A stretch of 64,000 bases of DNA from Clostridiales bacterium (GTDB lineage Bacteria > Bacillota > Clostridia > Christensenellales > Pumilibacteraceae), in contig JAIEFT010000044.1 of the NCBI GenBank assembly GCA_029066805.1, positions 1 through 64,000 of the forward strand. The letters run 5' to 3'. Below are positions 55,193-56,769 of the stretch, piece by piece. The notes beneath the pieces were generated by a model that saw nothing but the letters and a program-made list of their open reading frames with translations, was not told the origin of the DNA and did no database searches. Positions within the stretch are counted from its first letter, which is position 1, and the number at the start of each line of letters is the position of its first letter. The translations under genes and the position numbers were made by a program.

Positions 55193-55768
55193 ATGAAGTT
55201 CAGAAAAGGCATTTACATAATATTCTTTTTTGTCGGGCTGACGCTGTTTGCGTTCAGCCTTATGCCGTTTTTCAGGGAGTTTCATGACGATACGTTTTGG
55301 ATAATGACTCTTGTAAGCGTTGCGCTTATGATATTCTGCCTTGTTGCGCTTTTTTACAAGCCGAGGGAGAAGGTCAAGCTCAACTCCAAATACGAGCGAA
55401 AGCAATTGCTTTTGACGCCGCCGGAGTACAACTTTCTTTTGGTTCTGCGCCAAGTCAAGCCCGAAAAGTACGAGGTTGTACCGCAGGTCGCGCTAAACAG
55501 CGTTATCGAAAAAAAGACAAACACGTCCTACCGCAGCGAGCTGTTCCGCGTGTGCGATTATTGCTTTGTGGACAAGGATACATTCGAGCCGTTGCTGCTG
55601 GTCGAGCTTAACGACAGATCGCACCTGCGCGCAGACAGGCAGGACCGTGACGCCAAGGTCGCCGCAATTTGCGCGGCGGCAAAAATCCCGCTTGTTACGT
55701 TCTGGCAGGACGGGGATTTGAGCTACCCGACCGTGCGCAAGACGGTGCTCAAGGCGATACTTAAATAG
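55193..55768 (+). CDS. DUF2726 family protein
   Basis: Two N-terminal TM; LLVELNDRSHLRADRQDRDAKVAAICAAAKIPLVTF. Confidence 0.8.
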   Translation: MKFRKGIYIIFFFVGLTLFAFSLMPFFREFHDDTFWIMTLVSVALMIFCLVALFYKPREKVKLNSKYERKQLLLTPPEYNFLLVLRQVKPEKYEVVPQVALNSVIEKKTNTSYRSELFRVCDYCFVDKDTFEPLLLVELNDRSHLRADRQDRDAKVAAICAAAKIPLVTFWQDGDLSYPTVRKTVLKAILK

Positions 55769-55929
55769 AAGAACCTCTGCACAAGTTCGTGCGCGGTATT
55801 GCTATAAATTTTCGTGCTACGTGCGTCTATATGTTGTGGACGTAGCGCTGCTACGACCGACAACATATATCCTTCGTATCACACAAATTTCCGACGCAAC
55901 TTTCACGCGTCACTTATGCAGAGGTTCTT
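55769..55929 (+). repeat. Large imperfect palindrome filling the whole intergenic gap
   Basis: Outer 13-bp AAGAACCTCTGCA/TGCAGAGGTTCTT plus inner TATATGTTGT/ACAACATATA and CGTAGC/GCTACG stems. Confidence 0.85.
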
Positions 55930-56769
55930 ATGAAATGCTATGATTGTCCGCGCGCGTGCGGCGCTGACCGCGAGGGTGGAAAAACAGGCGTATGCGGCGG
56001 CGGAAAAAATGCTCGCGTCGCAAAAATAATAGAAAACTTTTCGTATGAAGAGCCGTGCTTAGGAAAAGAAGTGACCGCCGTGTTTTTCGGTGGGTGCGCG
56101 CTCGGCTGCTCGTACTGCCAAAATTACAAAATCAGTCGCGGCAGCATAGGCGAGCAGTACGACGACTCTGCGCTTGCACAGCTGTTTGACGGTGCGAAAA
56201 ACGCGATTGATTTGATCACGCCGTCGCACTATCTTTATGCGATAGAGCGTGCGGTGCATTTGTGTAAGCATGAACACGTGTTCATATATAACACGTCTGG
56301 CTACGAAACGCTTAGCGCGGTGGATAGAGCAAGCGCGTTTACCGACGTTTTTCTTGCCGACTTTAAGTATGCGGACAGCAAGGCTGCCGTACGCTTCTCC
56401 CGCGCGCCCGATTACTGCGACGTTGCTACTGCGGCTATACAAAGAATGCGGGCGAATATAAAAGACGTTTGGACGGAAACGAACGGAGAGCGCATGCTCA
56501 GGCGCGGGCTTATTGTGCGGCATTTGGTGCTGCCCGGGCATGTCGAAAATTCGATTGCCGCGCTCGATATTATTAAGGAGCGTTTGGGCACGGACACAGT
56601 TATTTCGCTTATGAGCCAGTTCACGCCAAACGGCGTGGGCGAGCCGAATGAGCGCTTGCGCAAGATAGAGTACAAGCTTGTTGTGGAGCATGCGCAAAAA
56701 CTCGGATTTAATAGCGGATATATACAAGAGTTTTCTTCGGCGGACGGGAAGTACACGCCCGATTTTTAG
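55930..56769 (+). CDS. Radical SAM protein (AmrS/PflA-like)
   Basis: CYDCPRACGADREGGKTGVCGGG; GGCALGCSYCQNYKIS. Confidence 0.85.
   Translation: MKCYDCPRACGADREGGKTGVCGGGKNARVAKIIENFSYEEPCLGKEVTAVFFGGCALGCSYCQNYKISRGSIGEQYDDSALAQLFDGAKNAIDLITPSHYLYAIERAVHLCKHEHVFIYNTSGYETLSAVDRASAFTDVFLADFKYADSKAAVRFSRAPDYCDVATAAIQRMRANIKDVWTETNGERMLRRGLIVRHLVLPGHVENSIAALDIIKERLGTDTVISLMSQFTPNGVGEPNERLRKIEYKLVVEHAQKLGFNSGYIQEFSSADGKYTPDF

Follow-up and report, generated by a model that had tools for sequence, protein, structure and literature searches.

A 161-nucleotide palindrome between two clostridial genes belongs to a dispersed hairpin family that is probably a non-coding mobile element

Position and structure of the palindrome

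The window analysed here is a stretch of 64 000 nucleotides (positions 1–64 000 of the forward strand of contig JAIEFT010000044.1) from a Clostridiales bacterium of the family Pumilibacteraceae. On its + strand, a DUF2726 gene (55193–55768) and a radical SAM gene (55930–56769) are separated by a palindromic element of 161 nt (55769–55929), which fills the gap entirely: its first base lies directly 3′ of the DUF2726 stop codon and its last base directly 5′ of the radical SAM ATG. The identity of the DUF2726 gene is backed by Pfam, and its C-terminus (ILK*) is identical with or without the element. The radical SAM gene is a gene call with weaker Pfam support (Fer4_12 barely above the cut-off and Radical_SAM below it). 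The extent of the element was assigned from the sequence, the fold and alignment with other copies, including that of a related genome (G008), and is uncertain by ∼3 nt, with the proper start probably at 55767–55771 (AG(A)AGAACC) and the end at 55928 (GGTTCT).

The outer stem is a perfect 13 bp helix formed by a 5′ arm (55769–55781; AAGAACCTCTGCA), which covers the first nucleotides after the stop codon, and its exact complement, the 3′ arm (55917–55929; TGCAGAGGTTCTT); both arms are supported by sequence, fold and covariation. Further in, a variable stem pairs 55828–55837 (TATATGTTGT) with 55860–55869 (ACAACATATA), the two sides of which covary among copies in keeping with the fold, and encloses the apical hairpin CGTAGC-GCT-GCTACG (55841–55855), which alignments show to be conserved and common to relatives in other phyla. 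The only Shine–Dalgarno (SD)-like site before the radical SAM ATG, AGAGG (55920–55924), is located in the outer 3′ arm five bases 5′ of the start codon and is paired in the outer stem when the element is folded with its flanks. In all of these particulars the preliminary description of the locus is borne out. The palindrome is real and foldable: its minimum free energy as RNA is −63.2 kcal/mol, compared with −36.9 ± 3.7 kcal/mol for dinucleotide shuffles (z = −7.1; 0 of 200 shuffles). The window has no match to Rfam 15 at the gathering score, and a search at E < 1 around seven copies of the element returned nothing relevant.

The window contains other repeats. An AT-rich dispersed repeat of the TTCACTATT..TTCACTAA type (24774–24886/55075–55187 and 41518–41565/56778–56825) is found on both sides of the palindrome locus and is unrelated to the palindrome. 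Between 58400 and 63300, periodic repeats of ∼69 bases (GCATAGGCG..GCGTTTAGCGGTTGC) read on the + strand as BspA-type leucine-rich-repeat-like protein, and may belong to a large surface-protein gene that runs past the window end.

A dispersed family of hairpins

The palindrome is one copy of a dispersed family of ∼160-nt hairpins, present in high number in a group of gut bacteria, and not a locus-specific regulator. A homology search, suggested in the preliminary description and run here, placed its kin elsewhere in its own genome: BLAST found six more copies with 70–81% identity. The seven copies were aligned by sequence alone and a covariance model was then built, with which at least 13 strong copies were found in the same genome. 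The model has matches in 18 of the 20 genomes of the genus, its own included, and none at all in the other two. Across the order the distribution is patchy (15 of 297 genomes and eight of 125 genera). In the window itself, a search at E < 1 on both strands returned the palindrome alone, so that a proposed distant kinship with a structured-element family of four copies did not hold up; the shared string GCTACGTGC, which also occurs at positions 1033, 15986 and 28170, is accordingly no sign of such kinship.

The family has relatives in other phyla. An exact 21-mer of the apical hairpin (CGACGTAGCGCTGCTACGACT) matched 102 stretches in named genomes, with carriers among Bradymonadales, Desulfosarcina, Desulfuromonas, Geobacter, Selenomonadales, Thermoanaerobaculales and Clostridia. 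Identity in the 21-mer follows from the construction of the search, and the independent observation is the surrounding architecture: by fold and alignment, the DNA around it in other phyla again forms a long hairpin of the same design, whereas the arms and inner loops differ. At least 40 copies that are 90–98% alike are present in Bradymonadales CSSed10_215. Phage, plasmid and viral collections gave no match to the element, the viral collection having been probed with the exact 21-mer only. Two irregular copies were seen in the own genome (G000): a shortened one between tRNA-like genes at a contig end (L079, 81–151, on C7), and one on C61 with a second, partly N-masked copy in tandem behind it.

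Arms that change and continue to pair

In the seven-copy alignment, both sides have changed in 27 of the 57 pairs. Double-changed cells number 63, compared with 21.7 ± 3.9 after shuffling (0 of 500 shuffles), and 92.9% of cells are paired in the true structure compared with 27–44% in slid structures. The double changes cluster in two helices, the outer stem and the one beneath the apical hairpin; sequence conservation is found in the stretches around the inner loops and in the apical hairpin. Throughout the genus the arms differ among copies while complementarity is kept within each, and arm sequence is conserved only within subfamilies, such as that of Bradymonadales.

The comparison of copies at the same and at different loci bears on what maintains the pairing. 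Between copies that occupy a single locus in different species, one compensated change was counted against 33 that break a pair, whereas between copies at different loci there were 20 compensated and 47 pair-breaking changes (P = 0.0014 for the difference between the two sets, which are imperfectly matched in divergence, with mean identities of 0.943 and 0.903, respectively). Because compensation is common between loci and rare within one, pairing seems to be maintained as the lineage moves and not by a function at this site; that pairing is needed for movement and decays after landing is the simplest reading of these sequences. Between same-locus copies, paired columns nevertheless diverge more slowly than unpaired ones (0.046 versus 0.085, P = 0.004), which counts against a purely neutral fate and leaves room for a function in place. 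Directly behind one and the same terminator, two relatives (L120 in G019 and L130 in G010) carry elements with wholly different arms; either elements have been inserted at this spot more than once or the arms have turned over to an extreme degree.

Sense placement at stop codons

Genes around the copies were called by us with a codon-usage filter in place of longest-ORF calls; these calls are rough, and the names DUF2726, radical SAM, YbeY-GTPase, aminotransferase and rpsE are backed by Pfam, the others having been read by eye from translations. A sense stop codon of the upstream gene lies at −17 to +15 nt of the element 5′ end in 64 of the 103 genus copies, or in 46 of 75 when same-locus copies are merged. 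The stop codon of an antisense gene is equally close to the element 3′ end in one copy (binomial P = 7e-13 for the merged set). An excess this large and this one-sided cannot stem from rough gene calls. Many of the stops are built from the first bases of the element (T + AG) or from TAAG, which is conserved at the base of the outer stem, and several of the remaining sense copies are located directly behind the T-run of an apparent intrinsic terminator. The downstream start is well past the element in most copies, with room for an SD of its own. Among 12 Bradymonadales copies that were checked, no sense bias was apparent; the bias is thus a feature of the genus and not of every relative.

Some individual sites are worth recording. 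In several genomes different elements (L065, L067, L069 and L075) occupy the stop codons of rpsL, rpsG and fusA, an operon that holds up to three copies. In the own genome, two long single ORFs end at an element: CarB fused to DapF as read by eye (L078, 480–4523, on C61) and YbeY fused to an Era-like GTPase according to Pfam (L082, 3190–4524, on C59).

Empty sites and target duplications

Three loci can be compared with empty sites, and at each the new stop occupies the codon of the old one. In most of 18 relatives the orthologous radical SAM locus has no element, and at this empty site the stop codon of DUF2726 and the start codon of the radical SAM gene overlap as ATGA (..CTCAAATGAAGTGC). 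G008 carries a shortened copy between perfect AAAT flanks where the empty site has a single AAAT. From these sites, AAAT at 55763–55766 in the window is the putative left copy of a 4-bp target duplication, and its T (55766) together with the following AG forms the TAG stop codon (55766–55768); the right copy has decayed and is presumably represented by TAT at 55929–55931. The G008 copy has a mismatched outer stem and an apical deletion (L091), in which the whole inner hairpin has been lost between two AAATTT stretches while the outer parts remain. The element at this locus is shared by the own genome and G008 and is absent from closer relatives of G008, a distribution that calls for its precise loss, for gene transfer or for two independent insertions at one stop codon. 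Behind a metG-like gene (..AAC TAA..), the site is empty in G004, G005 and G012 and filled in G000, G008 and G015, with TAG at the same codon and no clean 4-bp duplication. Behind the aminotransferase gene, the site is empty in G015, G019 and G010 (GAT TAA) and filled only in G000, as GAT TGA.

Target duplications are clearest in the Bradymonadales relative, in which seven of 12 fully flanked copies have perfect 4-bp duplications, where 0.74 would be expected (P = 2e-4); the genus copies, which are older, retain a weak statistical trace (P = 2e-4). A mariner-type TA-dinucleotide target was considered and set aside, as the flanks of the Bradymonadales copies and of the G008 copy agree better with 4 bp. 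Two derivatives of 44–51 bp with little beyond the two ends were also noted in Bradymonadales G061 (L307, 228–272, and L300, 293–343), one with a perfect 4-bp duplication (TATT) and the other with a near-perfect one (TAAT/TAAC).

Effect on the two flanking genes

The element gave a new stop to the DUF2726 gene and probably a ribosome-binding site to the radical SAM gene. Insertion separated the ATGA overlap, with DUF2726 ending at the same residue, now via TAG, and translation of the radical SAM gene probably depends on the AGAGG of the 3′ arm. When a ribosome terminates at TAG it would sit over the 5′ arm, which should expose the AGAGG; with the SD freed in this way, the two genes may stay coupled. 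Such coupling would be an accident of the insertion rather than the purpose of the element. The copy nearest to that of the window among those at different loci (L045 in G011) precedes a surE-like gene and has the same arrangement, with TAG made with the first two bases of the element and CAGAGGTTCTT-ATG at its other end.

The palindrome was described at the outset as burying the ribosome-binding site of the radical SAM gene. The geometry of that claim stands, both in the filling of the gap and in the position of AGAGG; a dedicated switch for the radical SAM gene does not. Absence or loss of pairing in close relatives had been named as what would speak against regulation, and the palindrome is indeed absent from most orthologous loci and decayed in G008, the one relative that has it here, which weakens the regulatory reading. 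Nor is the burial itself conserved, since the stem in G008 is imperfect and the SD there is GGAGG.

Alternative explanations

That a cis-regulatory RNA switch evolved here, hiding the radical SAM ribosome-binding site and gating translation, is improbable. Full pairing of AGAGG within the 13-bp outer stem is what such a switch would show, and the stop/SD layout recurs at a second locus, before the surE-like gene in G011; however, a dozen unrelated loci in the genome carry the same element, most orthologous loci are without it, the outer stem has decayed in G008 and the downstream start is some distance past the element in most copies. Rather unlikely, though deserving of more weight, is a structured RNA useful to the host at gene ends, such as an RNase III or RNase E site or an mRNA-stabilizing hairpin, selected wherever it was placed in the manner of ERIC and BIME effects in enterobacteria. 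This would account for the strong sense bias at stop codons, for structure conserved with covariation, for the presence, in several genomes, of elements that differ in sequence at the same ends of ribosomal genes and for the slower divergence of paired columns in place, and it has a precedent in the orientation-dependent, ribosome-exposed RNase E site of ERIC (PMC2229807). It is at odds with the near absence of compensatory changes between same-locus copies, with presence or absence that varies among close species, with the two genus members that have no match and with the several copies behind intrinsic terminators, where transcription would be poor.

Two further readings take the element for a known kind of repeat. 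A REP moved by a RAYT (Y1 tyrosine transposase) would likewise be a short dispersed palindrome, mostly 3′ of genes and with GTAG in the apical hairpin. The element is four times the length of a REP, lacks an unpaired terminal tag and has target duplications, and PF01797 is scarce in the genus; this reading is very improbable and largely refuted. Target duplications are not a known outcome of Y1 transposition. An integron-like attC site or other cassette boundary would share conservation of structure with variable sequence, and pairs of copies in the same orientation do lie 0.8–5 kb apart; the intervals between them, however, hold conserved operon genes and no cassettes (by eye rpsL-element-rpsG-element-fusA, recA and ftsK), and the element ends are not conserved, which leaves this origin with next to no probability.

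A probable mobile element and its mobilizer

We consider it probable, with good confidence, that the family is a MITE-like non-coding mobile element of ∼160 nt with sense insertion directed to stop codons. The observations behind this are dispersal in many copies, empty sites at three loci, 4-bp duplications at the young copies of a relative, sense placement at 3′ ends in the genus and covarying arms. A single strand of the element would fold into one long hairpin, and copies would move as DNA through an enzyme acting in trans, for which pairing of the ends and the conserved inner loops may matter more than any fixed sequence at the termini. New copies would be placed at a stop codon or just behind a terminator; as many copies start with AG or GG and carry TAAG at the base of the outer stem, the stop would be remade at or near its old place.

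A search over several enzyme families did not yield a mobilizer. Among the 20 genus genomes, the Y1 transposase (PF01797) occurs in three and is absent from the own genome, DDE_Tnp_1 (PF01609) occurs in none and reverse transcriptase (PF00078) in three. RAYT, DDE_Tnp_1 and reverse transcriptase were rejected as partners, being absent from most element-carrying genomes. Most of the genomes are probably metagenome bins, from which repeated mobile genes may be missing, but G016, which is likely to be from an isolate, is also without PF01797 and PF01609. No transposase was seen on ten Bradymonadales stretches, and when the subfamily ends from Bradymonadales were used to look for a longer, autonomous version, they led to nothing but full-length copies, short copies with internal deletions and ordinary genes. 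A possible link to IS5, suggested by a resemblance of some ends to those of IS5, was dropped because no DDE_Tnp_1 was found.

Comparison with known repeats

MITEs that occur in operons include ERIC, Correia/NEMIS, RUP and Chunjie, some of which are transcribed within operons and, in the case of ERIC, have an orientation-dependent effect on mRNA, according to two reviews (PMC10969869, PMC2229807). As described there, they resemble the palindrome family in their length of 100–235 nt, lack of an ORF, hairpin form, dispersed and intergenic location and target duplications. The palindrome family, in contrast, conserves an inner core and not terminal repeats, its ends varying and covarying; it has a strong sense bias at stop codons, and no related insertion sequence was found. 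It is MITE-like by behaviour and fails one usual feature of MITEs, namely terminal repeats whose sequence is conserved from copy to copy. BOX elements of Streptococcus pneumoniae, in the part of the account cited here (PMC3049150), frequently extend over the very 3′ end of a gene and provide the stop codon for 36 CDSs without evident truncation. The supply of a stop codon at gene 3′ ends is thus a likeness by description; BOX differs in its modular make-up (boxA, B and C), and a sense-only stop-codon target is not among the features described in that part. REPs of the GTAG and CGTC classes, of which the latter has no dedicated transposase, are found chiefly 3′ of coding regions and are 20–40 nt long with an unpaired terminal tag and stems of 5–13 bp (PMC3733652). 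The likeness is that of palindromic repeats mostly 3′ of coding regions, whereas the present element has ∼160 nt and four stacked helices; at 161 nt and with PF01797 absent from its own genome, the palindrome is not a REP.

Implications

More tentatively, and with less than even confidence, the family may represent a previously undescribed class of mobile element spread over several phyla, with an enzyme that reads the hairpin and the inner loops, which would explain the covarying ends, rather than a fixed terminal sequence, and that in at least one clostridial genus is aimed in sense at stop codons and terminator ends and remakes the stop. This raises the questions of which enzyme moves an element whose ends change freely while they continue to pair and of how stop codons in the correct orientation are located. 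Such a hairpin, when seen in one genome, is easily misread as a regulator of the next gene. An insertion of 160 nt can enter packed operons, at an ATGA overlap or between ribosomal protein genes, with neither gene broken.
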